From IMG/VR virus record IMGVR_UViG_3300027970_000889, positions 1 through 39,612 of that record: a DNA stretch of 39,612 nt, one strand, 5' to 3'. The stretch is from a virus. This document shows positions 5,492 through 36,613 of this stretch, piece by piece; within the stretch, counting starts at the first letter, position 1, and each line of letters starts with the position of its first letter. Under the pieces are notes generated by a model. That model worked only from the letters and a program-made list of their open reading frames with translations. It did not search any database and was not told where the DNA came from. Made by a program: the position numbers and the translations under genes.

Positions 5492-6046
5492 ATGAAAATT
5501 ACTGAAGTACTAACAGAATCAAGCAAGATTTGTCCACAATGTGGAATGAGAGGTTGCACTTGCAAACCCGGAACTTGCAAATGCAAACCAAAGCCCGGCT
5601 ATCCAAAGAACATTGATGAAGCCGCTAATCCAGCACAACAAGCCGCTATTGCTATTAGTATGAAAAAGGCTGGTAAGAAGCCAAAAGATATACAAGAAGA
5701 AGATTTAGATGAGGATTGGCAAAAGGTCAACAAAAAAGACAAAACTGATGGCATGAGCAGTAAGGCTGTCAAAGCATATCGCAGAGAGAATCCAGGATCT
5801 AAACTAAAGACTGCTGTTACTACTAAGCCTTCAAAACTAAAGAAGGGTAGTAAAGCCGCTAAACGCCGTAAATCATTCTGTGCTAGAATGAGTGGAATGA
5901 AGAAGGCTCACGCAAGTGCTAAGACTAAACGAGATCCGGATAGCCCAATCAACAAAGCACTACGCAGATGGAACTGTGAAAGTGTACAACAGATGGAAAA
6001 ATTGGTAATGATTGCTGAACAGAAAATTAGAAACCTTAAGAAATAA
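5492..6046 (+). CDS. Cys-cluster and Lys-rich protein, putative packaged protein
   Basis: A 184-residue protein in three parts. Residues 1-10, MKITEVLTES, match the putative capsid-targeting signature, with LTE at 7-9. Residues 14-31 hold six cysteines (CPQCGMRGC, CTC, CKC), a likely zinc-binding knuckle. From about residue 85 to the end is a strongly basic domain (KGSKAAKRRKSFCARM, INKALRRWNC) that I associate with a phage domain of unknown function (DUF6321-like). IDE (41-43), IQE (67-69) and LDE (72-74) lie in the linker and fit prohead-protease cut sites, so maturation would release the zinc and basic parts separately. DNA binding inside the head is plausible but inferred. Confidence 0.78.
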   Translation: MKITEVLTESSKICPQCGMRGCTCKPGTCKCKPKPGYPKNIDEAANPAQQAAIAISMKKAGKKPKDIQEEDLDEDWQKVNKKDKTDGMSSKAVKAYRRENPGSKLKTAVTTKPSKLKKGSKAAKRRKSFCARMSGMKKAHASAKTKRDPDSPINKALRRWNCESVQQMEKLVMIAEQKIRNLKK

Positions 6047-6047
6047 C

Positions 6048-6725
6048 GTGAGAGCAAACGAATTCATCAGCGAAGCTATTAGCCGTAGAGACTTACTTAA
6101 AGGTGTAGCGGGTGCCGCCGCATTGGGCGCTACTGGTTTAGCTAAAGCAGGTGAATATCAAGATTTAGAAACTATAAAAAAACAACCTGACGTTTGGATG
6201 CCTAGATTCGAACAACTGCAACAACGTAGTAATGGTATGTTAGGTAAATTAATGCGAGCCGCCGGTCCAGAATGGGCACAAAGACTGACAGGGACAAAGG
6301 TTCGTGTTATGTCGAATGACCAATGGGTTCAAGGAAATGCTGACAATCGCACTGTCAGTCTTGACCTAACTGTGTTTTGGGATGCTCCTGATGCTACACT
6401 GGCATTTGCTATAGCACATGAACTGGGACACATTGCCCTAGGACACGGTTTTCAGCCTGATCTCGGGCAAGCACGTCGGGAAGAAATGGATGCTGACGAC
6501 TTTGCTATTAGGTTATGTAGGGCTTTGGGCTACAACAAAGTTGAGATGTTTAAGTTCTTGCATCAAAAACAATCTGATTACGACTTTTACAATAGTATAA
6601 CTAAACTGCCTAATAGCAGTCATCCTAGTTATGACCAACGAATCAATCGTGCAGGTCAAAAAGGATTTCAGTTGTCAAAAGGTGGAGTTAAACAAATGAA
6701 TACGCTAATGACACACTTAGCATAA
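6048..6725 (+). CDS. M48-like zinc metalloprotease with buried Tat-type signal
   Basis: The GTG at 6048 is chosen because it follows the previous stop by one base and gives the signature VRANEFISEA; an upstream in-frame ATG lies inside the preceding gene. Of 225 residues, 1-9 match the capsid-targeting signature with ISE at 7-9. SRRDLLKG (12-19), a hydrophobic stretch rich in Ala and Gly and AKA at 32-34 form a textbook twin-arginine signal. HELGH (124-128) followed by EEMDAD (146-151) is the M48 zinc and catalytic site. Cutting after residue 9 would leave the Tat signal at the new N-terminus, suggesting a protease packaged, delivered and exported to the periplasm. The enzyme class is clear; the route is inferred. 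Confidence 0.82.
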   Translation: MRANEFISEAISRRDLLKGVAGAAALGATGLAKAGEYQDLETIKKQPDVWMPRFEQLQQRSNGMLGKLMRAAGPEWAQRLTGTKVRVMSNDQWVQGNADNRTVSLDLTVFWDAPDATLAFAIAHELGHIALGHGFQPDLGQARREEMDADDFAIRLCRALGYNKVEMFKFLHQKQSDYDFYNSITKLPNSSHPSYDQRINRAGQKGFQLSKGGVKQMNTLMTHLA

Positions 6726-9870: not shown

Positions 9871-10103
9871 CGTAACATAAAATGAATATAATCTTTCTCA
9901 TCTGTGAATTTGAACGTAGTTTCAAATCCATCATCTTGTGTATCTTTATATTCATACGTCCACCTAGACTTTGTTCTACCAGGACCAAAAGTATCAACAC
10001 ACCAATCTAATGGATTATTTTTATCTCTTATAGAACCGTCTGGTCCCATATAGTATTTCCAATAATCCCATGGCAATAATACAATGTGCTGATATTTTTT
10101 CAT
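9861..10103 (-). CDS. Small hypothetical protein, 80 aa
   Basis: The start MKKYQHIVLLPWDYW at 10101-10103 is preferred to an upstream GTG because it forms an ATGA overlap with the queE stop. The 80-residue protein is rich in Trp, Tyr and Asp (YWKYYMGPDG, RWTYEYKDTQDDGF) and probably soluble. Function unknown; position directly after queE suggests co-translation only. Confidence 0.65.
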   Translation of the reverse strand: MKKYQHIVLLPWDYWKYYMGPDGSIRDKNNPLDWCVDTFGPGRTKSRWTYEYKDTQDDGFETTFKFTDEKDYIHFMLRWR

Positions 10104-10948
10104 GTTCCCCACTCATTTTTAAATAACGGTACTTGCAGTCTATCACTATAACGATAACCACGATTCATTGCTTCAATAGCAACATTCTTTGCATTTAGTT
10201 TATATAATGACTCTACGCCACCGCATGGCATGAAGTATACAGGGCCTCTAAATCCACCATTGCGAAATTCTTTTACTGCTTTATCTGCTTCAAGTGCATC
10301 ATCTTCTGTTGCTACTACAAACTTAAGATAAACAAAACCTACACTTTCATATTGACGAATAATACTAGGACAAATTGCTTCTTGCCACTTCTCGCCACTG
10401 ATACTTAGTTTAGGACTAACACTAAATGTTAATGCATTCTTTTCTCTGTTAATCTTCCACTTCTGTAAATATATTGTGAGGTCTTGACTAAGTTCTTGTG
10501 TACCGTTAGTTTCGAATGTAATCTCTTTAAGACTTCTCATTTTTTCATTTGAAAGTAAGTCTGGATACGCTCTTTGCCATCCAAGAAGAGGTTCACCACC
10601 TGTGATAACAAGGTGTTCATCCATCCAACGCTTGTGAGGAAGTATATCCATAATGCTGTCAACAATACTATCGGTAGCGATAACAGGACTAAGATGTTTA
10701 AAGCGAGGGTCCCAGCTTGCGTAACTATCACATCCTGTACTGACAAGCGGTAAGGATTTATAATCTGTATAATCTTCTGCTTTAATTGCAATAACATCTC
10801 TCTCACTACTCATTTCTCCCTTAGGCATACCGAAGCCACCGCATGTAAAATTACATCCATATGTTCGTAAGAACACACTGGGAACACCCATGTATCTACC
10901 CTCACCTTGAATGCTATAAAATAATTCTGATACTTTTAAATGACTCAT
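10100..10948 (-). CDS. queE: 7-carboxy-7-deazaguanine synthase QueE (radical SAM)
   Basis: QueE converts 6-carboxytetrahydropterin to 7-carboxy-7-deazaguanine with an iron-sulfur cluster and SAM. This 282-residue protein has the N-terminal signature ELFYSIQGEGRYMGVPSVFLR (8-28) and GCNFTC with Cys 32 and Cys 36. The third ligand is displaced by a long insertion to Cys 73 in TGCDSYASW, where ordinary QueE has a compact cluster loop. ITGGEPLLGW is the glycine-rich SAM motif and TFETNGTQ a further family motif. The GFGMPKGE run inside the insert looks conserved in marine phage QueE. Works with folE and queD in this window to make a deazaguanine. Confidence 0.9.
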   Translation of the reverse strand: MSHLKVSELFYSIQGEGRYMGVPSVFLRTYGCNFTCGGFGMPKGEMSSERDVIAIKAEDYTDYKSLPLVSTGCDSYASWDPRFKHLSPVIATDSIVDSIMDILPHKRWMDEHLVITGGEPLLGWQRAYPDLLSNEKMRSLKEITFETNGTQELSQDLTIYLQKWKINREKNALTFSVSPKLSISGEKWQEAICPSIIRQYESVGFVYLKFVVATEDDALEADKAVKEFRNGGFRGPVYFMPCGGVESLYKLNAKNVAIEAMNRGYRYSDRLQVPLFKNEWGT

Positions 10949-11163
10949 TTGATTTTTATGTTGTAGTTGGTAAGGATGACTTCACCCCAAGTGCCGCCAC
11001 CTTGTTTGTAAATGTGATTAACTTGTTTAGCACAATCACGTATAATTAATTCAGCAAATTTTTCAATAGATTCACTATCAGCAGTTTGACCTGCAAGTGA
11101 TGCTCGTTTTAATGCCCAGTCAAACCCTGCTTCTTTTGCTAGTTCTTCTATTTTTTTGTTCAT
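10945..11163 (-). CDS. Small hypothetical protein, 72 aa
   Basis: A 72-residue protein beginning MNKKIEELAKEAGF, containing ESIEKFAELIIRDCAKQV and ending TNYNIKIK. This pattern (short helix, 'KFAELIIRDC') is common in small proteins of T4-like phages, without a known role. It overlaps queE as ATGA. Confidence 0.7.
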   Translation of the reverse strand: MNKKIEELAKEAGFDWALKRASLAGQTADSESIEKFAELIIRDCAKQVNHIYKQGGGTWGEVILTNYNIKIK

Positions 11164-11166
11164 TTA

Positions 11167-11358
11167 TTACCAATGACGTATAGTATTTGCTATAATGACA
11201 CAACATGTTATCACATGTAGCACCACCCAGAAAGTCTTTAGGAACAATGCAATCCTCGCTTCACCCAATGTAAGAATAGGAACATCAGGCCTGTCATCAT
11301 CTGTATTACCCATTAAATGGCCGGTTGCTCTTGCCCAAATTTTTTCTAAACTATTCAT
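11167..11358 (-). CDS. Small single-pass membrane protein, 63 aa
   Basis: The start MNSLEKIWARATGHLMG at 11356-11358 is used; a longer frame would run deep into the preceding gene. This leaves an 8-base overlap with that gene's stop. A hydrophilic half with GNTDDDRPDVPIL is followed by LGEARIALFLKT and one membrane segment (about 37-58) ending IANTIRHW. I believe similar proteins are widespread in marine myoviruses; function unknown. Confidence 0.68.
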   Translation of the reverse strand: MNSLEKIWARATGHLMGNTDDDRPDVPILTLGEARIALFLKTFWVVLHVITCCVIIANTIRHW

Positions 11359-11986
11359 GTTTTTCCTCAATAGAATAAAACCAATCATCTCCTGCACTCC
11401 ATTTACGTGTACCATCTACTGTCCATAGATTTTGAGCCGCCTGAAAATCAGGAAATTTAGTTTCACCGGGAATCAAACTTTGATCGTACCACAAGCAACG
11501 GTTGTTAGGCTGACAAGCAAACTGTCCATTTTCTAACTTAATAAAATTAAACGATTTGTGTTCTTCTGCAACTTCAGTAAAGCCTGTGTCCACATCCATG
11601 CCGTCAGCACAAAAGTCTACAGTAAACAAATAAGTTCCGTAATGCCATTCCTTGTCTTTACCTAGAAACTTAACACCTAAATTGCGTAATCCTATTTTTT
11701 CAATGATAGTAAAACGATACCCCATACAGTCCCAAAGCTGTAACATATCAATAGGTAACGTTGCTGTGTGGTCTTTTTTCCATACATAAGCGTGTATAGG
11801 TAGTTTATCATACAATGCTCCGTAATTGGGTAATAAACTTTCAATACGAAATACTTGTCCACGCAATGCTTTAAGACTAACCCAGATGGCAGGTTCTAAT
11901 TCTCCGTGCCCCTTTTCAAAGTTATAAAGAAATTCACGTTTTATCCAACACTTAATTGGTGGCAATGATCCTACAATGTAACTCAT
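11351..11986 (-). CDS. Conserved hypothetical phage protein, 211 aa
   Basis: A soluble 211-residue protein starting MSYIVGSLPPIKCWIKREFL. It is beta-rich with many aromatic residues (AYVWKKDHT, LWDCMGYRF, WHYGTYLFTVDFC, WSAGDDWFYSIEE). I recognise no catalytic motif. It lies immediately downstream of the class II aldolase (one base between them), so it may act in the same pathway, but this is context only. Confidence 0.7.
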   Translation of the reverse strand: MSYIVGSLPPIKCWIKREFLYNFEKGHGELEPAIWVSLKALRGQVFRIESLLPNYGALYDKLPIHAYVWKKDHTATLPIDMLQLWDCMGYRFTIIEKIGLRNLGVKFLGKDKEWHYGTYLFTVDFCADGMDVDTGFTEVAEEHKSFNFIKLENGQFACQPNNRCLWYDQSLIPGETKFPDFQAAQNLWTVDGTRKWSAGDDWFYSIEEKHE

Positions 11987-11987
11987 T

Positions 11988-12626
11988 TTAATATTTTCCT
12001 GATGCTAATACGATTTGACAAATATGTTCTAATCGTTCAATGTGTTCAAACGCACGCCAGGGGCTTGTGTCAATTGCTACTACTCCGTGTCCTTTAATAC
12101 CTACAATGTCATAGGCAATGTTGCCTTTATTGTCTAATTGTAATTGATTATGGCATTGATCCGCAAGCTCTTGGCTAATGGGAGCCACATCCCTTACATT
12201 GGGTGCTACCTTAGTGTAACGATTCAATTCTGGAAACGCACTACTGATAGTGCTTAAATCAATACCGGCGTGCATAGCGGCAATACAATAAGTAGGGTGT
12301 AAATGAACTACAACTCTTACATCATCACTGTGTTGTCCTAGTCTCTTTTGCAATCCAAAATGCAAAGGCAATTCTCCACTAGGTCTCAATCCTTGGCTTA
12401 TATCTGAATAAGGAAGTTCTATCAACGACGGATCTTCTTGCCAAATCTGATCGATTATCCCAATCTTCTTAAACTGGTCGGGTTGCATCGTTTGCTTACG
12501 AACACCACTGGGTGTGATGTAGAAGTGGTCACGGTCGTGATGACGAATACTTACATTGCCATCACGACTGGTAATCCAGTTGCGTCTATATGCTTCAACT
12601 AATGTATCGCAAATTGTTTCTAACAT
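11988..12626 (-). CDS. Class II aldolase/adducin-family enzyme
   Basis: A 212-residue zinc-dependent aldolase fold like L-fuculose-phosphate aldolase, ribulose-phosphate 4-epimerase and methylthioribulose-phosphate dehydratase. Visible residues: GNVSIR (23-28), the phosphate-binding ITPSGV (37-42), PSGELPLH with Glu 85, zinc ligands in HLHP (His 108 and His 110) and GIKGHGVVAI (His 180). All key residues are present, so it should be active. The exact reaction cannot be told from sequence. In a phage operon with an epimerase and glycosyltransferase it most likely feeds sugar metabolism. Confidence 0.88.
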   Translation of the reverse strand: MLETICDTLVEAYRRNWITSRDGNVSIRHHDRDHFYITPSGVRKQTMQPDQFKKIGIIDQIWQEDPSLIELPYSDISQGLRPSGELPLHFGLQKRLGQHSDDVRVVVHLHPTYCIAAMHAGIDLSTISSAFPELNRYTKVAPNVRDVAPISQELADQCHNQLQLDNKGNIAYDIVGIKGHGVVAIDTSPWRAFEHIERLEHICQIVLASGKY

Positions 12627-12628
12627 TT

Positions 12629-12847
12629 TTATCCTTTATAATATTGTAACATACCTAGAAACCATACTGATGCCAGCATGCCAAAGTTTGCGGCACTAGG
12701 CCAATCTCTAGTACGTACGGCAGTTACCAACCAAGCGGCGTTGCCTACAAATAGTAGCTCAATGCCTATTATAGGATCTAGATTAAAACTAACTACTATG
12801 GCTCCTGCGAACATAATGCCAAAGCAAATCCATTTGATTATTGCCAT
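12629..12847 (-). CDS. Small three-segment membrane protein, 72 aa
   Basis: ATG at 12845-12847 (MAIIKWICFGIMF) follows the previous stop by one base and is preferred to an upstream TTG. The 72 residues contain three hydrophobic stretches (about 3-21, 27-44, 54-69) separated by NLDP and RTRDWPSA. Likely an inner-membrane protein of the infected cell. It follows three other tiny genes, two of them clearly membrane proteins, in the same operon. Confidence 0.7.
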   Translation of the reverse strand: MAIIKWICFGIMFAGAIVVSFNLDPIIGIELLFVGNAAWLVTAVRTRDWPSAANFGMLASVWFLGMLQYYKG

Positions 12848-12848
12848 A

Positions 12849-12983
12849 TCAAGCCATTGTGATGGCAATAAAAGCCAACATAAAACTTAATACTGCTCCC
12901 ACAATAGGAATCACAACCGGTGCGTGTTTGGTTATATCTTCTAACCATTGTTCTGTTTCAGGTTCTTTATTCTCTTGGTTCAT
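12849..12983 (-). CDS. Small single-pass membrane protein, 44 aa
   Basis: A 44-residue frame, MNQENKEPETEQWLEDITKH followed by one hydrophobic segment (APVVIPIVGAVLS..., residues 21-44). A soluble acidic N-terminus and C-terminal anchor are what I would expect of a conserved tiny phage membrane protein. The ATG (12981-12983) lies 17 bases inside the end of the upstream gene and the stop is one base before the next ATG. Confidence 0.68.
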   Translation of the reverse strand: MNQENKEPETEQWLEDITKHAPVVIPIVGAVLSFMLAFIAITMA

Positions 12984-13083
12984 CTTCTTTACTTAATCCA
13001 TTTTTGTGTATATCCCATAGTACTATTCCTACTACAGTTACCATTATTATTACGGCAATAATTTCATTAACAGTCATACTCAT
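12967..13083 (-). CDS. Tiny single-pass membrane protein, 38 aa
   Basis: A 38-residue frame, MSMTVNEIIAVIIMVTVVGI with one membrane segment (about 7-23), then a charged tail DIHKNGLSKEDEPRE. The start overlaps the upstream stop as ATGA and the end overlaps the next gene by 17 bases, supporting translation although it is very short. Confidence 0.6.
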   Translation of the reverse strand: MSMTVNEIIAVIIMVTVVGIVLWDIHKNGLSKEDEPRE

Positions 13084-13511
13084 GCTCCGTAATAAGTTTC
13101 TTTATCTTTTTCAGAATGTTTAGGTTCGTTCCAAACATTACGATTGTTCCATTCTTGTACTTTTTCAAGTCGTTGTTGTTCAGTAAGTTCGTCACAACGG
13201 CTACTGTAATCTGGCATACGTAGCCAGTCTACTGTGCCACCGCGTGGACCATAAGTATTTTCTACTGAACGAAACACTGCCCAAGTAGCAAACACCATGC
13301 TAATGATAGCAATGTGTCCAATCATGTTGTAGCCGATAGTCAGTAGTTCACCAACGTAAAGACCAAACGCCAGACTCCAAAAACAGCCTAGTAGGATACT
13401 GAGAAAGTATTTGACATATACGGGCGCATGACGCAGAGGATTCATATTAGGGTTTATAATATTCCAAGAGGAACGACTAATCAACCAAATGAATTTGAGT
13501 ACACTAAACAT
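13080..13511 (-). CDS. Membrane protein, 143 aa
   Basis: Two hydrophobic segments (about 33-56 and 60-81, GELLTIGYNMIGHIAIISMV across the second) are followed by a hydrophilic tail of about 60 residues with YGPRGGTVDWLRMPDYSSRC and a Tyr-rich end KETYYGA. Topology is probably two-pass with a long soluble tail. Second gene of the queD operon, sharing one base with queD. Function unknown; conserved in my recollection among marine T4-like phages. Confidence 0.7.
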   Translation of the reverse strand: MFSVLKFIWLISRSSWNIINPNMNPLRHAPVYVKYFLSILLGCFWSLAFGLYVGELLTIGYNMIGHIAIISMVFATWAVFRSVENTYGPRGGTVDWLRMPDYSSRCDELTEQQRLEKVQEWNNRNVWNEPKHSEKDKETYYGA

Positions 13512-13993
13512 TATGCAAACTCCCCGTCTTCCCTATGACCACTACGTCCTGCCATATTGCTATCAGTCTCACGTACCTCTACTCTGCAACACCAAACACG
13601 TTTAGCTTCTTCACTACCACAGTTGGGTAAGAAAATTGTGTTAATGTATTCGTATAAGAAGTCAGATATACCTTCACAACCAGTACGTTCTACTTCTGTA
13701 ATCTTTGCTAGTTTCAATTCACCTAAACGCAATAGTTCATCACGCATAGGATCATCTTGTGCGACTAATAGAGTATGGTCAAACCATTCCTCTAGTTTAT
13801 CTTTGAGGGGTCGTAATCCACCGAAGTCAGTTACCCAGTTACGTGCGTCTAATGTATCAGCTTCAAACTCAAAGTGAAAACTCATAGCATAGCCATGAAT
13901 TAAATTACAATGACTGTCAGCACGCCATTGACGATATGCAACAGGACCTATTTGTCTGTATGTTTTTGTTGAAAAGAATTTTTTGTTTGCCAT
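13511..13993 (-). CDS. queD: 6-carboxytetrahydropterin synthase QueD / PTPS family
   Basis: QueD turns dihydroneopterin triphosphate (made by FolE) into 6-carboxytetrahydropterin for QueE. The 160-residue protein shows the T-fold site ADSHCNLIHGY (25-35): His 28, catalytic Cys 29 and His 33, then DFGGLRPLK (56-64), FDHTLL (71-76, catalytic His 73) and VEVRET near the C-terminus. In most family members the second motif is HGH; here it is HGY, so one zinc ligand is replaced or supplied elsewhere (His 40 is nearby). First gene of a long operon with its own promoter and a strong AGGAG site. Confidence 0.87.
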   Translation of the reverse strand: MANKKFFSTKTYRQIGPVAYRQWRADSHCNLIHGYAMSFHFEFEADTLDARNWVTDFGGLRPLKDKLEEWFDHTLLVAQDDPMRDELLRLGELKLAKITEVERTGCEGISDFLYEYINTIFLPNCGSEEAKRVWCCRVEVRETDSNMAGRSGHREDGEFA

Positions 13994-14011
13994 GAATTTC
14001 TCCTATGTTGT

Positions 14012-14040
14012 ATTATAGCATAGGCAGCAGAATTTGTAAA
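14012..14040 (-). promoter_or_regulatory. Sigma-70 promoter of the queD operon, with palindrome over the -10
   Basis: Minus strand TTTACA (14035-14040), 17-base spacer, TGC-TATAAT with the -10 at 14012-14017, an extended -10. CCTATG (14002-14007) and CATAGG (14019-14024) flank the -10 as an inverted repeat, a possible operator. The predicted leader is only about 12 bases and begins next to AGGAG (14000-14004). Confidence 0.75.
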
Positions 14041-14068
14041 GCGGGATGATGTCCAAAGACCGCTATAG

Positions 14069-14542: not shown

Positions 14543-14775
14543 TTTGAAAGTGCTCTCCACATTTTAGTTTGGTCATGTTCTTTTAAAAATTCTTCTTCAC
14601 CTGCAAACGTAGGACTATCAGACATAATTTCATCTAATAACCATTTTAATTTATGTAAATCTTTTTTGATTTCAAATTGATTGAAACCATCATTATAGTT
14701 ACTATGAAGTTCTACACCACTCATATAGATTTGATGATGTACACTGTTGTAATCCATTTGTTTACGAAAGCCCAT
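14539..14775 (-). CDS. Hypothetical protein, 78 aa
   Basis: A 78-residue soluble protein starting MGFRKQMDYNSVHHQIYMSG, with a helical second half (FEIKKDLHKLKWLLDEIMSD) and an acidic FAGEEEFLKEHDQTK. Overlaps both neighbours by a few bases. No known motif. Confidence 0.65.
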   Translation of the reverse strand: MGFRKQMDYNSVHHQIYMSGVELHSNYNDGFNQFEIKKDLHKLKWLLDEIMSDSPTFAGEEEFLKEHDQTKMWRALSK

Positions 14776-15658: not shown

Positions 15659-15694
15659 AGATAACCTTCCTTTGTGATGGTTTTTGTTTTGAAG

Positions 15695-15720
15695 TGTAAG
15701 CTACCGTTGTGTAGCTTACA
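15695..15720. other. Perfect 10-bp inverted repeat in the folE leader
   Basis: TGTAAGCTAC (15695-15704), loop CGTTGT and GTAGCTTACA (15711-15720) are a perfect 10-base-pair hairpin. Neither strand has a T-run after it, so it is not a standard terminator. It would be transcribed from the GATAAATAC box just upstream and lies 37 bases before the folE start, so it may stabilise or regulate that mRNA. Confidence 0.7.
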
Positions 15721-26635: not shown

Positions 26636-27208
26636 TTATTGAAAGATATGGTTATTTTTTTCTCCATAAATTTTGATATATTTTCCTGCAAGCATATCTG
26701 CCATTGCTTCAATTGGGCTACCGGGATAACTATCCCCGGGTTCAATCATATTTAGTTCACCTTGACGGACATGTACTAATTCATGGAATACTGTACGTAG
26801 TATATCTACAAGGTTACGATTTTTAGCATAGACCCAAATATTATCAGTACCCATTTGATGACCACCGGTATGATGATTAGTTTGAGCCTCTTCGGTATCC
26901 ATACTTAATTCAATAGATGGAGTAGATTTTAAATGTAATATTTTGGAGGCCCACTGAACAAACATATCAACTTCTCGTTGTAGTTCATTTTCACCAGCCT
27001 CATCTAGTTTATTTTTAATCCAACTGTCAGGGTTACGATGATATTTTTTGACAAATAAATCATGTAATGCTTTACCAGTAATTTTATGTTTACTAGCGAT
27101 TCTTCTCATTAGCCTGTCGATTGTATTATAGTCGTGCTTTTCTAAGCTAGGAAGTTTCTTTGCTAGCTCATTGGCAGGCGACTCTAATACAATCTGACTA
27201 AACCGCAT
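26636..27208 (-). CDS. HELVH zinc metallopeptidase-like protein, putative packaged protein
   Basis: A 190-residue protein. Residues 1-9 (MRFSQIVLE) fit the shared capsid-targeting signature. A helical domain with DYNTIDRLMRRIASKHKITG and LHDLFVKKY precedes LDE (68-70), a second candidate prohead-protease site. The zincin site is FHELVHVRQGE (141-151), with Glu 167 in PIEAMADMLAG as probable third ligand. This is the arrangement of compact gluzincin peptidases. It would be the second packaged peptidase in this window after the M48-like one at 6048-6725. Confidence 0.75.
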   Translation of the reverse strand: MRFSQIVLESPANELAKKLPSLEKHDYNTIDRLMRRIASKHKITGKALHDLFVKKYHRNPDSWIKNKLDEAGENELQREVDMFVQWASKILHLKSTPSIELSMDTEEAQTNHHTGGHQMGTDNIWVYAKNRNLVDILRTVFHELVHVRQGELNMIEPGDSYPGSPIEAMADMLAGKYIKIYGEKNNHIFQ

Positions 27209-27515: not shown

Positions 27516-27524
27516 GTATTTATC
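27516..27524 (-). promoter_or_regulatory. Putative late promoter box GATAAATAC
   Basis: Minus-strand GATAAATAC, 24 bases before the 91-residue gene and 20 bases after the nuclease gene stop. Same sequence as at 15723-15731 and 36634-36642. Confidence 0.55.
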
Positions 27525-27543
27525 AAAAATCTCTAAAAGTAGT

Positions 27544-27990
27544 TTAATTACACCAACTTTGTTTGGCTTCTCCGTAGTATTCTCTTGCAAATCCGTTTTG
27601 TATTAGCATCATTCTTAAACTTTGTCCATCAAGTAATATATCACCTAATACACGACCACCGTATTTATCCCAATCAGCGATAGCTACTTGACGTTTTTGT
27701 GCTTTACTGATAGCATTCTTTGTAAATGCAGTAGCGGCTTGACCACGTTGGTCTTCGCTTGGGCACATTGCTCTATGACCTTTTTCAGGTGTATCAACAC
27801 CAAATACACGAATACTTAGTTCTTGTTTTAAAGGTGGAGGTAAGAATGTTGCTTGAAATGCAACAGTATCCCCATCAATAATCCTAGTGATAGGAAAATC
27901 ATAGATGTTCATTGGCTTTTGCTTTTGTGCAAATGCAACACTAGTTAATGTTAGAATTACTAATATTATTATTTTTTTCATTTTTATCAT
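27544..27990 (-). CDS. Staphylococcal-nuclease-type (thermonuclease) with Sec signal peptide
   Basis: A 148-residue SNase-fold nuclease. Residues 1-21 form a Sec signal (MIKMKKIIILVILT then FAQ). Then IIDGDTV (37-43) with Asp 41, IRVFGVDTPE (60-69) with Arg 61, Asp 66 and Glu 69, and GGRVLGD (111-117) with Arg 113, so the calcium-dependent active site is complete. The domain ends with AREYYG. It would be exported and degrade DNA or RNA outside the cytoplasm, perhaps competing DNA or host DNA at lysis. The start overlaps the upstream stop as ATGA. Confidence 0.9.
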   Translation of the reverse strand: MIKMKKIIILVILTLTSVAFAQKQKPMNIYDFPITRIIDGDTVAFQATFLPPPLKQELSIRVFGVDTPEKGHRAMCPSEDQRGQAATAFTKNAISKAQKRQVAIADWDKYGGRVLGDILLDGQSLRMMLIQNGFAREYYGEAKQSWCN

Positions 27991-28532
27991 ATTACCTTAC
28001 GATTCTTTACTCTTTCAATATCAATACCAAACGGTGTCTTGTTTGTTATTGATTTAACTATTTTCTCAGTAGCACCTTGGCCAGGCTTTAGTTCTGCGGC
28101 AACTATTTGAAAGATATATCTGTTCTTCTTTACACCCAAGAACTCACCTACTAACACTTGATAGTTAGGATAGTTGGGTGTTAAATCTACTTTAGGATTT
28201 TCTTGTTCTTCTAAATAAAATACATCCTCATCTGAGGATACTTGCAATGTAGGATGTGCGGTTAATACAACATATGCATTTTCACCATAATTATCTTTTT
28301 GCTTGGCTATAGCTACTCCTAAATCAGTAGTTTTAACTACAAAAGTAATATATGGCATTTTCATTAGTTCATGTCCACGTCTAGTTTCTAACTTATGTAA
28401 TACTCGAAGGACTTTTTCTATGGGAATGTTACGTTCAGAACCATCACTTCTATCATTAATAAAGTGTTTGCTCACAACTAAATACCCGTCTGCAAAAGGT
28501 ATTTCCTTATTAATAAACTCTGTTGCTCTCAT
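27987..28532 (-). CDS. Unknown protein with weak capsid-targeting-like start
   Basis: 181 residues. The start MRATEFINKE is clearly related to the shared signature, but the residue-9 Glu is Lys and Glu follows at 10, so it may not be cut. The segment SKHFINDRSDGSERNIPIEK and VLRVLHKLETRR, followed by a strand-rich part with FVVKTT and YVVLTAHP, recalls small RelE/colicin-D-like ribonuclease folds (His, Arg-rich helix, then sheet). I would not assign the family firmly. Flanked by the nuclease and the amidoligase-like gene. Confidence 0.6.
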   Translation of the reverse strand: MRATEFINKEIPFADGYLVVSKHFINDRSDGSERNIPIEKVLRVLHKLETRRGHELMKMPYITFVVKTTDLGVAIAKQKDNYGENAYVVLTAHPTLQVSSDEDVFYLEEQENPKVDLTPNYPNYQVLVGEFLGVKKNRYIFQIVAAELKPGQGATEKIVKSITNKTPFGIDIERVKNRKVI

Positions 28533-28533
28533 A

Positions 28534-30876
28534 TTAGCTCATTATAGGTAATACTTCAATGTCTGTACCTTGATCGTACCCATTGTCTCTTAGCCATTGA
28601 ATAGCTACACGATTAGCATCACGTTGAACGTTACCTACTCCACTAAAGCGATGTACTTCTTGTCCATCAGCTAACACTTTCCAAGCACCAGTAAAGCCAC
28701 CGGCTGCACGTTGTTGTTGTATATCAGTTGTGCTACCTGGTGCGGGTGCTGGTTGATCCATACGTGATAGACCATAACCTCTTCTATCAATACCTTGTTG
28801 TAACAACCAAGCTTGAGCTTTTTCTCTTGCTTCTTCAACTGATGTAGCTTGGAATGTATAAACTATACTTTGGTCTGCTGTTCTGTATAGTTTGTAATCT
28901 TGTGTTTCACCACCTGTAGCACGAATAGGTTGTGCTAATATAGGCTCACTATCACCAACACGTCTTATACCAAACATATCTCTTGCTTGGAATGGTTGTA
29001 GTCTATGTGGTCCGTGTTCAAGGTAATCATTTAGACGAATCAATGCTTCTCTATCATTGGTAATGCCTTCAGCATCTTCTACCTTTCGGTTAGTATCCAA
29101 ATTGAATATTTCATACTTTGGTTCACTACTGTCGTCCCTTTCATACGGACGCAATGGCTTGGCAACCAATGAACTTCGATAGTCAGCCCAATTTGGATAA
29201 CCACCAATGGCTTTTTCTCTTGCTTCTTCTTTAGATAAGGCAACAACTTCTATACTAGCAGTACCACCAGGACTACGAACACTCCACCAATATTTTTTGC
29301 CGCCGGTAGTATCTTTCTTCAACTTGCGTTCTAGTTGTGCTTGCTGAACAAAGCTACGCAATGCAGCCTTAGGTAACTCACCTGCGGCATACTTAGCAAA
29401 GTATTGAATAGTGTCGGTACTATCTTTACTTGGTGCTAATAACTTATAAAGTTTTGTTAGATATTCTTTTCTATATTTCTGTGGATCAACTGCGGCATCT
29501 AATGCTACTACAAATCGTAACAACGTGTTTTCAATCTTAGGGATATCAGCATCTAACCAATCACCACCGGGACTACGAAACTCAATGTAGCCGTCTTTGG
29601 TATTGATACTTGTGTATTTGTGTGTTGCACCACTATGAACTAGTTTGCTAGCGATATCACTTAGTCCTTCTTTCATTCCATCTAACAACTTTTTAGCACT
29701 ATCTGGATTTTGTCTAATGTTATCTTTAACTTGTTTCAAAGCACTCTTACAAAAAGTGTTACCTTCACGGTCAAACTCTTTCAATATATATTCGTCACCT
29801 AACAATAATGCTAACTTAACATAGTCAAGTTTTTCTCTACTAAAGTCAGGTACACTTACATTAATATGTAATCCAGTGCTATCATTCGTGTAGCAACCTT
29901 TATCTTTCGCCCAAGCAACAACTTTGTTAAAGTCACTTATCATTTCATCTATGGGCATTGGTGGAGATACGAACTCTAATCCACCATCACTGGAATCGTC
30001 AGGCTCTAAGCTACCATCAGGCTCAACAACATAGTGACCTGCTTCTCTGCGAGCACCGTGATAACGTTCGCTTGTATTGACTGGCTTACCAATCATTCTG
30101 CTAAACTCATCACCAATATCATCAACGCTTAACTCACCACCGTTATCGGGATAATACCAATGTGGCCAACTAATATCATAGTTACTTTCAACGTCTTGCA
30201 TTGTATAAAGACCTTCACTTTCTAACCAATCGCTTTCGTCTGGCCAGTCAGTTTCATCCATCCACTTTTCACGTGCATTGTCATACAATCTTTCTTGATT
30301 GTCCCATTCTTCTTCAACAAATTGGTCACGCTTTTCTTCTACCATATCAGTAGCTTCTTTCCAGTGTTTCCAATCTTCGTTATTTTCTTTGTCTTTTAGT
30401 TTAGTTGTTTTTGCGCCGGCTTTGTTTGCCGCTTCTTTTTGTTCATCTGTTAAGCCTAACTGGTCATAAGCCTCATCTAGTGCGGCATCTTCATCAAACT
30501 CGCCTTCACTTTCAATATATTCACGTAGATAATCTTTACCTTCACTATCCCATTGTTCGCTACGTCTTTCATCAGCCCATTCGAGATAAGATTGAGTTAG
30601 TTCATCAACTAAACTTTCTACTTCTCTAAGACCATTGTAGTTACGGTCATAAAAAAAGTTGCGTATGTTTTGGATACTACCGGAACTCTCATCACTATCA
30701 TAATCAGCTTCTGGATCCCCGTCACCTTCTTCTTGTTTAACGTTTGGAACAATCATCTCAAATTCCATACCAGCCTGAGCACCAGTCTTGGCAGCTTCTT
30801 GCTTTAGTCGTGTAGGATTCATCGCTACTTCGTCAAGTACTTCTGTTTCTAATATTATAAAGTCTAGTGCTCTCAT
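28534..30876 (-). CDS. Putative amidoligase-like packaged protein, 780 aa
   Basis: Start MRALDFIILETEVLDE carries the shared signature with ILE (8-10) and LDE (14-16). AGMEFEM (35-41), DGGLEFVSPP (297-306), STGLHINVSV (333-342) and KYTSIN...IEFRSPGGDW (420-440) match, in order, the putative amidoligase family (COOH-NH2 ligase), whose members join an amine to a carboxylate using ATP. Residues 85-230 are a very acidic, Trp-rich insertion. From about 540 to 780 there are four short repeats of about 60 residues (WSVRSPGG, YEIFNLDT, YKLYRTAD, WKVLADGQ), each a strand pair plus A-rich helix. A substrate cannot be named. Expected location: virion interior, by its start. Confidence 0.72.
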   Translation of the reverse strand: MRALDFIILETEVLDEVAMNPTRLKQEAAKTGAQAGMEFEMIVPNVKQEEGDGDPEADYDSDESSGSIQNIRNFFYDRNYNGLREVESLVDELTQSYLEWADERRSEQWDSEGKDYLREYIESEGEFDEDAALDEAYDQLGLTDEQKEAANKAGAKTTKLKDKENNEDWKHWKEATDMVEEKRDQFVEEEWDNQERLYDNAREKWMDETDWPDESDWLESEGLYTMQDVESNYDISWPHWYYPDNGGELSVDDIGDEFSRMIGKPVNTSERYHGARREAGHYVVEPDGSLEPDDSSDGGLEFVSPPMPIDEMISDFNKVVAWAKDKGCYTNDSTGLHINVSVPDFSREKLDYVKLALLLGDEYILKEFDREGNTFCKSALKQVKDNIRQNPDSAKKLLDGMKEGLSDIASKLVHSGATHKYTSINTKDGYIEFRSPGGDWLDADIPKIENTLLRFVVALDAAVDPQKYRKEYLTKLYKLLAPSKDSTDTIQYFAKYAAGELPKAALRSFVQQAQLERKLKKDTTGGKKYWWSVRSPGGTASIEVVALSKEEAREKAIGGYPNWADYRSSLVAKPLRPYERDDSSEPKYEIFNLDTNRKVEDAEGITNDREALIRLNDYLEHGPHRLQPFQARDMFGIRRVGDSEPILAQPIRATGGETQDYKLYRTADQSIVYTFQATSVEEAREKAQAWLLQQGIDRRGYGLSRMDQPAPAPGSTTDIQQQRAAGGFTGAWKVLADGQEVHRFSGVGNVQRDANRVAIQWLRDNGYDQGTDIEVLPIMS

Positions 30877-32216
30877 TTTTTTAACTTATTCCATTTATCG
30901 TATATATAGTTTTTCAACTCTATTGTGTTCTTAAAACCATTGTCGTTCATATATTTAATCAACTTCACGGCACTAGCTCTATCTCCTGCGTCTGGCTTAC
31001 GTGCGTTACTTAAATCAACACCTATGTTATGATCGCCTGTTGTATCGTGATACCATAACAGGTTCTTTAGTTGTCTCTTAGCTCTATCGCTTAAGTATTC
31101 CTCTTTGTCTTTTTCAATCAACTCAATCCAAGGCTTAACAAAGTCTGTTGGCTTGCGAGTAGAACCTCTAGTTGGTTGACCCTTCAATACATCTTTAGCT
31201 TGGCTTGGCTGAACACTCTTGCGTGTATCTAACAATCTCCAAGCTTTTTCATCTGTATAAAGATATACTGGTATATCTCTTTTTTTAGCTGTTATCATTA
31301 GCTGTCGTGTTTGTGGGCTACGATATTCATTTTGTTCTTTTAGTAAGATATGTATCTCTGTAACAGGTGTCATTGGTATACTTGGCTCTTTGCTGAATAC
31401 TCTATCTTCTGATTCACGTGTTCTTGTGCCATCACTTTTTAACCAAGCACTATTCCAATAGTCTATTGGCTTAACAATGTATCTACTGTTGAACCAATCA
31501 CCGTTCATTTTAAACATTACACCACCAGTACCAACATATCTATGATAGTCACCGGTTGGTGTGCGTGTTAAACTTAAAAAGTATGGATAACCTTTTGGTG
31601 CATAATCTTCTTCGCTTGGATTACCTGTTACACTTGCAAGTTCAAAGTTGCCTGATTGTAGAATCTTTAATGCGGCACCGGTACTAGTGTAATGAAATAC
31701 TACACTAGTTGCACGTTCATTCAGTTGTTCATTTTCACTAAGTTTATTTTCAGGCTTGTCGTATGCTCTACGGTCAGTTAGTGTAAAAATCATTCCATCG
31801 TGTGGATCTTTTTTGCTATATAAGTCCCAATCAGGTAATAAACGCTTAATCATCTTAGCATATAATCCAATGCGACTATCTTCTTTGGCATTGAATGTTA
31901 TTTCTTCTACTTTATCAAGACCATATTTTTGTAAGAACTCGCGGGTAATATCAACCGCGGTAGACAATACTTCGGCTGAATTACCTGTACCTGTTGTGCC
32001 CCAAATATCCATTTCCTGTGGATCAGTATCTTTTCTACCCATCATAAACTGAACTTCCCATTTCTTAGGATTGGCATTGCGGGAAAACGCTTGCCAATGA
32101 TAAGTTCTATCGCCTACTGTAAAGTTTGCTCTAGCTTCTTCACCGCCGCGAAATTTCCATTCCCAGTTCTTTTTACCTTGCTGGAATAGTTCGTTTAAAA
32201 ACTCATTCGCTCGCAT
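30873..32216 (-). CDS. Two-domain packaged protein with ART-like C-terminal domain
   Basis: 447 residues. The start MRANEFLNELF has LNE at 7-9. Domain 1 (about 18-148) is shared with the protein at 36664-38883: WEVQF, TTGTGNS, VLSTAVDITREFLQKYG, ITFNAKEDSRIGLYAKM; the pattern resembles an acyltransferase (GNAT) fold but is not certain. LSENEQLNE (159-167) ends this domain with two further candidate protease cuts. Domain 2 begins VVFHYTSTGAALKILQSG (172-189), then YFLSLTR (212-218) and ESEDR (268-272), an order like the H-Y-...-E sites of ADP-ribosyltransferases. If so it recalls T4 Alt, a packaged ADP-ribosyltransferase. Both domain assignments are inference. Confidence 0.7.
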   Translation of the reverse strand: MRANEFLNELFQQGKKNWEWKFRGGEEARANFTVGDRTYHWQAFSRNANPKKWEVQFMMGRKDTDPQEMDIWGTTGTGNSAEVLSTAVDITREFLQKYGLDKVEEITFNAKEDSRIGLYAKMIKRLLPDWDLYSKKDPHDGMIFTLTDRRAYDKPENKLSENEQLNERATSVVFHYTSTGAALKILQSGNFELASVTGNPSEEDYAPKGYPYFLSLTRTPTGDYHRYVGTGGVMFKMNGDWFNSRYIVKPIDYWNSAWLKSDGTRTRESEDRVFSKEPSIPMTPVTEIHILLKEQNEYRSPQTRQLMITAKKRDIPVYLYTDEKAWRLLDTRKSVQPSQAKDVLKGQPTRGSTRKPTDFVKPWIELIEKDKEEYLSDRAKRQLKNLLWYHDTTGDHNIGVDLSNARKPDAGDRASAVKLIKYMNDNGFKNTIELKNYIYDKWNKLKK

Positions 32217-32656
32217 TACTCACGTTCTCGTTTTAATATAGAACGAATGAACCAAGCTTTCTTGCCGTACAAATCTTGTAGTTCGGCCATATAGTTTTCG
32301 ATACCGTGTTGATTCTCACTAGCTGCCTCATCAAACATTGCTGTTACTAACTTAAGCATTAATTCACAGTCTTGTAATGATTCAGCAAACATTAGTTCAG
32401 CACGTGGGATTTTAATTTGGTCTTCAATGATTGATAGTTCTGCGTATCTTGTTAAACTTCCGGGCGTATACGAACCTAATATTCTGATATATTCAGCAAT
32501 AGGGTCAATAGTAGCATTTACATCTTCGTACAATGTATTAAAGAAGTCGTGATATTGTGGAAAGTTGCTGCCTTCAACATTCCAATGAAAGTTCTGGCTT
32601 TTGATAGCAAAGCTTTGTGTACTAGCTAATAGTACTTTTAGATTATCTGATAACAT
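32216..32656 (-). CDS. dps: Dps-like ferritin-family DNA protection protein
   Basis: A 146-residue four-helix protein with the Dps signature NFHWNVEGSNFPQYHDFF (22-39) and DPIAEYIRILG (51-61). Ferroxidase ligands are kept with correct spacing: His 24, His 36, Asp 51 and Glu 55; the usual Asp four residues after the second His is Asn 40. Dps oxidises iron with peroxide and, in many bacteria, coats DNA; this copy lacks the basic tail used for DNA binding. It overlaps neighbours by one base and sits between two large virion-type genes, so it may be a virion or late product. Confidence 0.88.
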   Translation of the reverse strand: MLSDNLKVLLASTQSFAIKSQNFHWNVEGSNFPQYHDFFNTLYEDVNATIDPIAEYIRILGSYTPGSLTRYAELSIIEDQIKIPRAELMFAESLQDCELMLKLVTAMFDEAASENQHGIENYMAELQDLYGKKAWFIRSILKRERE

Positions 32657-35550
32657 TATTGTCCTTGCTTTAATAGTTCTTGTGCTTTCTCAACACTAAT
32701 CATAGGTCTTGGATGTGTGCCATTTACCACGCTCTGTAGATATTCTTTACTAAAGCCTTTTGGTGCTTCTGCTTTTGTAGGAGTTTGAGTTTGTACAGGT
32801 TGTGTGATATTGGGTTTGCCTGTTAAACGATTAATATTAGGATCATCACCGGGTGTAACTCTAGCATTAGCGCCGGCTGCTCCTAGTGCCATTGCCCCGG
32901 TTAATGCAGCCGCACCTAATTTCTGTTTCCAATTCTCGTCTACATTTTCATTAGAGTTTTTCTTTGTATTAACATTGATAGCTTTACCACTACGTTCTGG
33001 ATTAGGATCTTCTCTACGCTTACGTTGAGCGGCACTAGCACGACCTTTTTTACCTAGACTGTGAGCTTTTGCTTGTGGCAAACATTTTGGTTTACCTTCT
33101 CCGGGTTCTCTAGCACAAGGACCTTTAATATTGCCTTTAGTATCCATACGAACCCATTTTTCTTTATTGAACCAATCGTGCAAACTTTCATCCGCTTGTT
33201 CAATACCTTCTAGTATAGAACTTTCATTTTTCTTTCCACCGTTGCCCCAATTGCTTGCACCTTTTTTACGACACTTTACTAATGCACCACTGGCATAAGC
33301 ACTTGGCCATACTTTATAACGGCTCTTTACTTTATAGTAGCAAGCATCTTTCTTTTCGTTCATTATCATTTCACTGAACATTGGGCCATTACAATGTGGA
33401 CATTTTTCTTCCGTTATATCTTGCTCATATACATTCTTATCATACACAATACCTTCATCGTCATCGCCAATTAAATCAATAATTTTTAAGCTGTTAGTGT
33501 CACTATTATACTCTAAGTCAGGTAATCCGCGATATTTACTCATTGGTTTTTTAGAGTCATACCATGCTTCTCTTGCAATAGAATGTAAAAATAAAATATC
33601 CATGTCATCTTCAAATATAGAAGTTTCATAACCAAGTGCTTTAAATTGTGCTACATTTTGATTAAATATTTTAGTTTGTTCTTGTTGACTTAATTGTGCC
33701 ATTTGCCCTTGTGCGGCTGTTGGTACATAAGAACCTTCCCAAAATATTTCTAATGCAGTTTCACTTAATGCTTTAAGTTGTATGATGAGGTTTTTATTCA
33801 AAGGATTACGAGGTTGCATTGGAATAACCTCCCCTTCTTCTACACTTTCTTTTGGCACACAGTTGGGAACTTGTTTACCGCCCTTACTTTTCATACCTAC
33901 TTGCTTATGCGTATCCCAACATTTTTCATCTAGCTGTTCTTCATTAGTATTTTTTACACAGTTAGGATATGTTTTGCCAAACATTTTCTTGTTACCCTCT
34001 TTGTGATAACCTTTCCAACAGGCTTCATCTAAATTAGTATGGTCTACGTGTGTTTCACACATACCGCAGTCTTCACATACCATTTCCATTTCAATACTTT
34101 CATTGTGCTTTTTCTTACCAGCACAATGAGCCTTTTGACTGAAACCTTTAGGATGACTACAGTTGATACTACTCTTATACTTTTGACTCCAACCTTCATC
34201 AACACCTTTTGGTTTAGCATATGCGGCTTTGTTAGTCAATAATCTGTTCTTAACATACTCTAATGCTTTGTCTAGTTTTCTATTCAACTCAACATAGTTA
34301 TCTCTTGCACCATCACGTGCTAACATACTTGTATCAACACCGGCTTCAATGTTTGGTGTCAACAGACCCTTCTTATCAAGCTTTTGAACTAAGTTATCTA
34401 ATATACCTTGTTTTTCAATAGCTTTATCAAGTTGGCTTAATCTTGCTTTTAGTTCAGAATGTTTCTCACCTGGCATTGCTACCATAGGGGTAGATGTAGC
34501 TCTTTGTCTAAAATTAGGTTCTCTTGCTGTGAACTTAGAAACAGTATTTTGTTTAAAATCTTTTTCCCACTGCTCTAAATCAGCTATACGTTGTTGTTCA
34601 AGTTGTTGTTTAACTTGCTGTAATGCTTCTAATGATTTAGATTTTAGTTCATCACCCAAACTTTCTGGCAGTGGTTTATCTAACTTCTTTACATTAGGTT
34701 TACTTGGTGGATAGTAAGCTGACTTAGCTCTATTTTTTGTTCCTAATATTTGAGGATTGTTTACTCTAGGGTAAGTAGATTTGAATGTTTTTTGTTCTTC
34801 ATCATCTATATTTTTTGTTAATGCATTAATAACTCTTTGTTGTGTATTTTCATCTAATTGTGTTATTAATGATTTAGCTTTTTTATATACAACATTGATA
34901 TCTTCTTTGACAGTTTTTGTATCATTGGCAAACTGTTTCTTAGTTGCTTTAACAATACCACTGAAACGTTTATCAGCTTTCTTATAGTCACCTGCTAAAT
35001 CAGCTTTACCTGCATCTAATGCCGCCGCTGTTTTATATTGACTTAATTTCTCATTAGAGATTTCATCAAGTTGTTCTTCACTAACACCTTGACCTAATTG
35101 TTGTAAGTCACTTGTTAATACATCTTGCGTAACTTCACCTATACCTTTTGAAATTGTGATGCGAGAATATTTACGATCCTTACTCATAGCAACTACTTTT
35201 GATGGTTGTCCAAAATACTTAACGGTGTCACCAGTCTGTATATTTTTAATAGAAACACCACCAAGATTAACCGGCTTATCACCTGCAAAGTTACCTTGAT
35301 CTCCCCATGGATCATCTATACCTTCATTAGTACCAGTTGCTAATCTATCATGGTCTGCATCACGTTTTTGTTTTTGGCTTAGTTGATACATCTTTTTAGA
35401 GTATGCAACATCGTCATCAAATGTATCATCTTCTTGTGAACGATAGCTGGAACGACTTCTGCCACTACTAGCAACGGCATTTTGGTAATCCCAATCACTG
35501 TCGTAGTTATGTGGGTTGACTTCGTTTAGACCTTTAAGAATTTTGCTCAT
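32656..35550 (-). CDS. Large modular internal-virion-type polyprotein, 964 aa
   Basis: A very long multi-part protein. The start MSKILKGLNE has LNE at 8-10. Further [LIV]-x-E sites lie at domain borders: 161-163, 232-234, 450-452, 507-509, 540-542, 712-714, 870-872. Modules: a Gly/Ser-rich linker; a small beta domain (IQTGDTVKYFGQPSK); a helical LDEISNEKLSQY module (161-210) also found in the next gene; coiled coil (295-440); a PKGFSQKAHCAGKKK box; two repeats of CW...GK...PNCV (511-532, 544-565); a CPHC zinc knuckle; DACYYKVKSRYKVWPS and WVRMDTKGNIKGPC boxes (DUF5872-like). Residues 873-896 (NWKQK then a hydrophobic Ala/Gly run ending ANA) look like a signal peptide freed by a cut after VDE. 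No enzyme seen. Confidence 0.75.
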   Translation of the reverse strand: MSKILKGLNEVNPHNYDSDWDYQNAVASSGRSRSSYRSQEDDTFDDDVAYSKKMYQLSQKQKRDADHDRLATGTNEGIDDPWGDQGNFAGDKPVNLGGVSIKNIQTGDTVKYFGQPSKVVAMSKDRKYSRITISKGIGEVTQDVLTSDLQQLGQGVSEEQLDEISNEKLSQYKTAAALDAGKADLAGDYKKADKRFSGIVKATKKQFANDTKTVKEDINVVYKKAKSLITQLDENTQQRVINALTKNIDDEEQKTFKSTYPRVNNPQILGTKNRAKSAYYPPSKPNVKKLDKPLPESLGDELKSKSLEALQQVKQQLEQQRIADLEQWEKDFKQNTVSKFTAREPNFRQRATSTPMVAMPGEKHSELKARLSQLDKAIEKQGILDNLVQKLDKKGLLTPNIEAGVDTSMLARDGARDNYVELNRKLDKALEYVKNRLLTNKAAYAKPKGVDEGWSQKYKSSINCSHPKGFSQKAHCAGKKKHNESIEMEMVCEDCGMCETHVDHTNLDEACWKGYHKEGNKKMFGKTYPNCVKNTNEEQLDEKCWDTHKQVGMKSKGGKQVPNCVPKESVEEGEVIPMQPRNPLNKNLIIQLKALSETALEIFWEGSYVPTAAQGQMAQLSQQEQTKIFNQNVAQFKALGYETSIFEDDMDILFLHSIAREAWYDSKKPMSKYRGLPDLEYNSDTNSLKIIDLIGDDDEGIVYDKNVYEQDITEEKCPHCNGPMFSEMIMNEKKDACYYKVKSRYKVWPSAYASGALVKCRKKGASNWGNGGKKNESSILEGIEQADESLHDWFNKEKWVRMDTKGNIKGPCAREPGEGKPKCLPQAKAHSLGKKGRASAAQRKRREDPNPERSGKAINVNTKKNSNENVDENWKQKLGAAALTGAMALGAAGANARVTPGDDPNINRLTGKPNITQPVQTQTPTKAEAPKGFSKEYLQSVVNGTHPRPMISVEKAQELLKQGQ

Positions 35551-35551
35551 A

Positions 35552-36613
35552 TTACTTTTTACTAGTTATTTTATCTACTGCACGGTCAATACCAGCCTGA
35601 CGTTTTTCAATCTTAGCATCTTTCTCAAAACGACTTGCAGGTAATTTTGAATTGAATGCAGATGTAGCTACCCTAGCACCTTTTTGAAACTGTGTATTAC
35701 CTTTACGGTTTGCCATATCACCGGCTGCTGATTTTACATAACTTCCTAATGCTTGCGGGCTTAACTCGTCAAGTTGACTTTCACCCATCTCACCATTAGT
35801 CATAGCACCAGTAGTGCCTAAACTTTCAGTAGCACCTTGCTTACTATATGCATCAATCATTTGCCTAATATAGAAATTATAAAAACCACGACGGCTATTG
35901 TATTCTCTATCTCCTAGTACAGTCTTTAGTGCCTTTACAGCATCACCTACTTCTGCACCACGCATTATTTTTAATGCGTCAGTAACAAGTGAGTCACCTC
36001 TTTGATTGTTTTCTGTAACACTTCGTAGTTGTTTACCTTCTAGGTATTCACGTACTGTGTTTAGATAGTCATTGGCTTTGATAATCTTTTCTTGTACCCA
36101 GCCTTCTAAGCCTTCTTCTTCACTAACACTTCTTACGATGTTATAGATTTTCTCAGCGTTCTTACCTGCACTGAATAAATCACTCACAGCCATTTCTACT
36201 TCGTGGTCTGTTCTATCTTTATCGTGTGATATAAAACCTGTCTTTACACTACGCCCTTGACCTGGCACAACGATTAAGTCTTGTTCGCTTAAGTCAGCTT
36301 CATTGACTGGTGGAGTTGGCTTTTGAGGTTGCTTGCTCATAGAAGCTTTCATTTCTTCTCTAGTTTTACCGTATTTCTTTTGAAATTCAGCTGGCTTCAT
36401 AGTCTGTAAGTCATACGCTAAATCTTTCATTGCGGCTTCGTTTAAGCTATTAGCAAATGGCTTGCTAGTTTTCTTACCTTTAAGTAGGTTGCCTACTTTA
36501 TTGCCACCGTAAACACTTGGGTTACGACTTTGCATTTTGACGAAACCGTGTTCTGTAGGTGCTATTGAACCTGCTGTTGTACTTGTTTCTTGGATAATTT
36601 GACTGATTTTCAT
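35552..36613 (-). CDS. Putative internal capsid / scaffold-associated protein, 353 aa
   Basis: Start MKISQIIQETSTT has IQE at 7-9. A further LNE lies at 57-59 (NSLNEAAMKD) and SQLDE near the C-terminal module. The middle (about 136-195) is helical: DHEVEMAVSDLFSAGKNAEK then WVQEKIIKANDYLNTVREYL, a pattern I associate with marine T4-like phage proteins of unknown role. The C-terminal LDELSPQALGSYVKSAAGD module repeats one in the 964-residue protein. Preceded by a GATAAATAC box and a GGGA site, so probably a late gene. Confidence 0.7.
   Translation of the reverse strand: MKISQIIQETSTTAGSIAPTEHGFVKMQSRNPSVYGGNKVGNLLKGKKTSKPFANSLNEAAMKDLAYDLQTMKPAEFQKKYGKTREEMKASMSKQPQKPTPPVNEADLSEQDLIVVPGQGRSVKTGFISHDKDRTDHEVEMAVSDLFSAGKNAEKIYNIVRSVSEEEGLEGWVQEKIIKANDYLNTVREYLEGKQLRSVTENNQRGDSLVTDALKIMRGAEVGDAVKALKTVLGDREYNSRRGFYNFYIRQMIDAYSKQGATESLGTTGAMTNGEMGESQLDELSPQALGSYVKSAAGDMANRKGNTQFQKGARVATSAFNSKLPASRFEKDAKIEKRQAGIDRAVDKITSKK

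Follow-up and report, generated by a model that had tools for sequence, protein, structure and literature searches.

Why should proteins that are otherwise unrelated begin with nearly the same few residues? The question is raised by a linear 39.6-kb piece of a virus record, which we analysed over its whole length of 39,612 nucleotides (hereafter, the window). Its replication genes are T4-like, tRNA genes are absent, and its polymerase is nearest to its counterparts in Phosso and Atu_ph07, both jumbo T4-like phages. A sequence-only reading had singled out seven such starts and had proposed that they mark a T4-type set of internal proteins, packaged in the head and cut by a prohead protease.

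A common leader in front of unrelated proteins

All seven N-termini were found where the sequence-only reading had placed them, five with the glutamate at residue 9 and two with it at residue 10 (Table 1). The 181-aa gene is an eighth, weaker member of this leader set.

Table 1. Putative cargo genes and promoter-like elements of the window. A slash marks the predicted cut.
Feature	Position	Strand	Leader, modules and context
TGATAAATA, late-promoter-like	5428..5436	+	ahead of plus-strand cargo pair
184-aa cargo	5492..6046	+	leader MKITEVLTE (5492-5518); basic C-terminal DUF6321 module
225-aa cargo, GTG start	6048..6725	+	leader VRANEFISE (6048-6074); Tat signal AISRRDLLKGVAGAAALGATGLAKA (6075-6149); M48 metallopeptidase body (HELGH)
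190-aa cargo	26636..27208	-	leader MRFSQIVLE (27182-27208); zincin-like HELVH peptidase
TGATAAATA	27517..27525	-	precedes 27217-27492 and the gene for the 190-aa cargo
181-aa cargo	27987..28532	-	weak leader MRATEFINKE, without clean LxE; internal YLEE/QENPKV
780-aa cargo	28534..30876	-	leader MRALDFIILE; second site VLDE/VAMNP; amidoligase_2 domain (Pfam 2.9e-10)
447-aa two-module polyprotein	30873..32216	-	leader MRANEFLNE (32190-32216); DUF6934-like module, then DarT-like ART module (30876-31715)
964-aa polyprotein	32656..35550	-	leader MSKILKGLNE; Sec-like signal NVDE/NWKQKLGAAALTGAMALGAAGANA (32863-32946)
353-aa polyprotein	35552..36613	-	leader MKISQIIQE (36587-36613); internal SLNE/AAM and QLDE/LSPQALGSYVK
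TGATAAATA	36635..36643	-	ahead of minus-strand cargo operon
748-aa polyprotein, leaderless	36664..38910	-	junctions DEVNE/AFDKPY and PINE/ASGYIPS, same type as in the cargo set

The starts are not a product of chance, either in the window or in three large relatives, G001 (524 kb), G002 (352 kb) and G003 (349 kb), whose genes were called by a simple codon-bias script. More specifically, the strict motif M[KR]xxx[FIVL][ILV]xE opens 27 of the 1420 called genes of these relatives, an excess of about 20-fold over the column-shuffle expectation (mean 1.4, maximum 6), and follows an internal methionine in only 5 of 6212 cases. In the window, 5 of 50 called genes carry the strict motif against 0.05 expected (P ~2e-9, an approximate value since the count permits alternative in-frame starts).

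Homology of the bodies was used to gather 143 distinct N-terminal 9-mers, for which the query side was selected by pattern and the subject side was not. They give the profile M[RK][AI][NTS][ED][FI][IL]xE, with glutamate in the final place in 124. On a held-out set of 38 contigs fetched later, glutamate stands at -1 in only 16 of 37 N-terminal placements. Among 17 aligned members of the 190-aa family the glutamate before the body is kept in nearly all while the other leader residues vary, and the GTG start at 6048 is kept in relatives (VRANEFISE four times, VRANEFIDE twice). The bodies behind the leader are unrelated, as had been claimed: 184 proteins of the clade fall into 53 first-module families. 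Equal frequency of the motif among cytoplasmic enzymes would have refuted the sequence-only reading; in the window it is missing from replication and metabolic genes. We also considered whether the leader is common in the same form to all T4-like phages and rejected this, as Syn9 has one such start and Phosso five (null 2.6); the expansion of the leader thus belongs to the clade of the window phage.

Protease-type sites at module junctions

The sequence-only reading overlooked internal protease sites, module shuffling and export signals exposed by a cut. Junctions were assessed with modules that follow the leader in one phage and are found inside a different protein elsewhere, at residue 60 or later. 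In 70 of 96 non-redundant internal placements, glutamate stands exactly before the aligned start, and in 63 of the 96 a residue of [LIVMF] stands two before it. Other offsets typically give about 7 of 96, apart from lesser peaks due to a further LxE in spacers. The held-out set has glutamate at the junction in 14 of 28 placements, all of them LxE, against 1 of 77 (LxE, 0 of 77) in a control of 822 genes without early LxE (Fisher's exact test on junction LxE versus control, P = 8e-23 for the main set and 4e-10 for the held-out set). The exact position of LxE at the junctions indicates that the putative cargo consists of modular polyproteins joined at protease-type sites.

Several junctions can be read in the window itself. 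The 447-aa protein contains EQLNE/RATSVVFHYT (cut between 31716 and 31715), and in G002 and G001 RATSVVFHYT belongs to a gene of its own, which starts MRANEFLIE/RATSVVFHYT. The 184-aa protein has internal sites after residue 43 (NIDE/AANPAQQ) and after residue 74 (DLDE/DWQKVNK), and both AANPAQQ and DWQKVNK stand directly behind a leader in relatives. The stop of the 181-aa gene coincides with the position of the cut site in relatives: the window protein ends with RVKNRKVI, where G002 reads RVRNRKVLE/DLTRRGFLGG and continues into a GH19 domain. For the 780-aa protein, alignment with relatives suggests that the body starts past the second site, LDE/VAMNP. A short motif such as LxE arises by chance in large proteins, and the 780-aa protein has 17 copies versus 16.4 expected; the 964-aa protein has 22 versus 14 expected from its composition. 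Module exchange between phages, in units bounded by protease sites, should leave a junction pattern of this kind. The phage collection yielded no homologues from cultured phages for the M48, 353-aa or 190-aa proteins.

Export signals behind the predicted cuts

When 2629 open frames were scanned, 24 candidate Tat signals were obtained, each defined as RRx[FLMVI][LMIVF] followed by a hydrophobic stretch. Of these, 21 stand after [LIVMF]xE and one after TDE; the remaining two, one at a frame edge and one in a probable fibre, are not credible. Four more signals, all after LxE, were present on the held-out contigs, so that all 26 credible signals (22 + 4) lie directly behind xxE. They have the form (S)RRxFLx plus a hydrophobic stretch, and most are internal to polyproteins, at residues 87 to 924; at such positions they could function only once the predicted cut has made them N-terminal. 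The bodies that follow are M48 peptidases, GH19 chitinase/lysozymes or unknown, and a Tat-M48 unit lies internally behind xxE in L053 and L056. In the window, the 6048 gene matches M48 (Pfam, 1.8e-8) and TAT_signal (4.5e-4, just under the curated cut-off). The Tat modules probably share ancestry, and their count therefore does not represent independent events; what is informative is that the glutamate is kept although the upstream module changes. Sec-like stretches occur behind NVDE in the 964-aa protein and behind LxE in relatives. No published description of buried export signals behind LxE in cargo polyproteins was found in the literature searched.

G002 encodes an ordinary GH19 endolysin, without leader or Tat signal, beside its leader-Tat-GH19 protein, and a similar ordinary GH19 is found in G004. 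The idea that the Tat-GH19 protein is the only endolysin is thereby ruled out in G002, and the Tat-tagged GH19 is probably not the lysis enzyme.

Likeness to T4 internal proteins and the prohead protease

T4 IPI-III and Alt likewise have a short leader, cut after [LI]xE by a gp21-family protease, in front of unrelated mature bodies. IPII and IPIII start with MKTYQEFIAE/A, and the FIxE that ends their leader is also the core of the clade leader. In IPIII, experiments assign capsid targeting mainly to residues 4 and 7 and processing to residues 8 and 10 (PMC9026906); the F, I and E of the clade leader correspond to IPIII residues 7, 8 and 10 and stand one position earlier. T4 has a handful of single-body proteins; the clade has dozens of families, with internal sites in chains and Tat or Sec-like signals behind the site.

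The prohead protease gene that the sequence-only reading had suggested looking for is not in the window and lies outside the fragment; nor was an S77 protease found in five near-identical contigs, all fragments. Among the matches listed, a Peptidase_S77 gene (the gp21 family) is present in 7 of 12 relative records, including the six largest, and the records lacking it are smaller fragments. In the large relatives the gene sits between portal and gp23, in the gp20-gp23 cluster, and their gp23 reads QLLAE/SS near the N-terminus, comparable to FLTE/A of T4 gp23. A phmmer search with Syn9 gp22 found no match in the relatives, and gene order is the sole basis on which their scaffold gene was assigned. 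In G001, a 74-aa protein with the leader-like start MKLFEMFDEAV (C1:352493-352717) directly follows the portal gene and lies near the protease. The T4-type internal-protein interpretation is thus supported by the FIxE core, the S77 gene of the relatives and the motif-free replication and metabolic genes, with packaging and cleavage inferred.

Enzyme domains of the putative cargo

The enzymatic content had been described as peptidases, an ADP-ribosyltransferase (ART)-like protein and an amidoligase-like protein. Pfam confirms the M48 peptidase and amidoligase_2; support is weaker for the zincin-like HExxH protein of 190 aa, whose fold is nearest to Wss1 (weak), and for the DarT-like ART fold. 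Foldseek relates the ART-like module to DarT (E 3e-4, probability 1.0) with low TM values (0.36-0.49) on a model of pLDDT 78; Pfam gave no match, and neither did a PDB sequence search. The N-terminal part of the 748-aa protein is weakly nucleotidyltransferase-like. In relatives, the bodies include GH19, GNAT, zeta-toxin/AAA_33, sigma-70 region 4, LysM with phage lysozyme, and GGACT, and some chains of the clade hold several unrelated enzymatic domains each.

The ART-like module has relatives in Salicola phage SCTP-2, Dickeya phage JA13, Pseudomonas phage Lu11, Alishewanella phage Slickus01, Vibrio phage K566 and a Salmonella phage, Sen-NF (L237-L242), three of the six having two copies side by side. 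Sigma-70 region 4 stands behind a capsid-type leader at L123:14064-14750 and L044:260-1255, possibly a packaged sigma factor.

Proposed mechanism and alternative readings

From the leader, the junctions, the protease gene of the relatives and the signals, all present in the sequences, we infer packaging, cutting, ejection and export as follows. The nine-residue leader would be a T4-type capsid-targeting sequence that draws late-made cargo, via the core, into the assembling head, where a gp21-family prohead protease would cut behind [LIVMF]xE and so take it off. Within long chains this site would be reused, one polyprotein giving several mature modules in the head, and modules would be swapped between phages as site-bounded units. 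In some modules a Tat or Sec-like signal would become N-terminal only after the cut. Following ejection into a new host, the M48 peptidase and GH19 lysozyme could be exported to the envelope or periplasm, and other cargo (ART, GNAT, amidoligase-like) would act in the cytoplasm.

We regard T4-type capsid targeting and prohead-protease cutting of the clade's cargo as probable on this evidence; neither was observed. The fuller proposal, that the protease cuts packaged chains into effectors and unmasks Tat or Sec-like signals in a two-step targeting to the head and then to the new-host envelope, could go either way, and for the inferred export in the new host we see the balance as about even. On this reading, T4-like capsid targeting, a known kind of system, would have been extended to shuffled cargo polyproteins, some of them with export signals that the cut unmasks.

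The absence of any proteomics for the window phage or its clade counts against the packaging case. The main texts of virion proteomics studies of relatives gave no support. The cyanophage homologues of the 964-aa protein, which in Syn9 and S-SM1 have glutamate-ending sites at module starts, bear only a number or the label hypothetical and are not annotated as virion proteins, even though Syn9 and S-SM1 virions have been analysed. This missing annotation is a gap in the packaging case. Lysine-rich fragments can be missed by trypsin-based work.

The strongest alternative, which we still consider unlikely, is that the packaged and cut proteins serve only inside the head, in the core or in DNA condensation, with no role in a new host. 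Certain products are highly basic, with a net charge of +27 for the 184-aa protein, and in T4 several peptides arise by cleavage of the core proteins gp22 and gp67 (PMC9026906), but it is not evident what use a head would have for M48, GH19, amidoligase, ART-like, GNAT and zeta-toxin-like bodies or for export signals. Slightly less plausible again is processing in the producing cell followed by late export, for lysis or superinfection exclusion, with another role for the leader. Phage endolysins are commonly of the GH19 family, and lysis could make use of Tat export; against this stand the separate ordinary GH19 of G002 and the similar one of G004, and the need of an internal Tat signal for a cut whose specificity is known from a protease that acts inside proheads.

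Polyvalent proteins are another precedent for the chains. Like the clade's chains, they fuse unrelated effectors thought to be delivered with DNA, including ART, GNAT, nucleotidyltransferase and peptidase themes, and these multi-enzyme, likely packaged proteins are thought to be self-processed by embedded zincins (PMC5512222). The clade does encode zincin-like cargo. However, no peptidase domain, embedded zincins included, is recognised by Pfam in the 447-, 964-, 353- and 780-aa chains, and the clade junctions are of the gp21 prohead-protease type, LxE, identical to the end of the leader; zincin processing in place of the prohead protease is accordingly improbable. Chance or common ancestry of the starts could appeal to the shortness of LxE and the likeness of the leaders, and has next to no standing, being already contradicted by the 20-fold excess, the 53 families and the control junctions.

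Two further systems resemble parts of the mechanism that we favour. In SPN3US, the prohead protease gp245 strips propeptides from giant-phage head proteins, as proposed for the clade; in the parts of that account available to us, all identified cleavages except self-cleavage give N-terminal propeptides, and, unlike in the clade, no polyprotein cargo or export signals are described (PMC10052503). In P1 DarB, an N-terminal signal sends large defence cargo to the head, as we propose here; the signal is a different one, within the first 30 residues, and the portion of the source consulted describes no LxE-joined modules (PMC9024508).

If the proposal is correct, the leader and LxE junctions would form a sequence rule that names the host-delivered proteins of a giant T4-like phage from its genome alone, with the start and end of each. 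The prohead protease would become a polyprotein-processing enzyme, and injected phage enzymes would be re-exported by the host Tat pathway, the first case as far as we found. The cargo set holds many unannotated candidate anti-defence and envelope-active proteins.

A promoter-like element and neighbouring genes

Both cargo units are preceded by the element TGATAAATA, at distances of 30 and 64 bases. Across G001-G003, 74 of 82 copies are at most 130 bases ahead of a gene start; the targets in relatives include fibre-like genes, gp18 (G003) and some metabolic genes too. The four copies in the window are not an unusual number (shuffling mean 1.5). Placement of the element makes late control of the cargo likely, but this is not shown. 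In G001-G003 it behaves like a clade-wide promoter element and precedes many glycine-rich fibre-like genes.

A Dps/ferritin-like 146-aa gene without leader lies within the cargo operon (32216-32656, minus strand) and has the same place in G002 (194429). Two further observations on the minus strand were made by inspection only: directly after the 181-aa cargo gene, a thermonuclease-like protein whose Sec signal is of the ordinary N-terminal kind (27544-27990), and a queuosine/preQ0 synthesis-like island of QueE-, FolE-, QueD- and transglycosylase-like genes (10100-21212).
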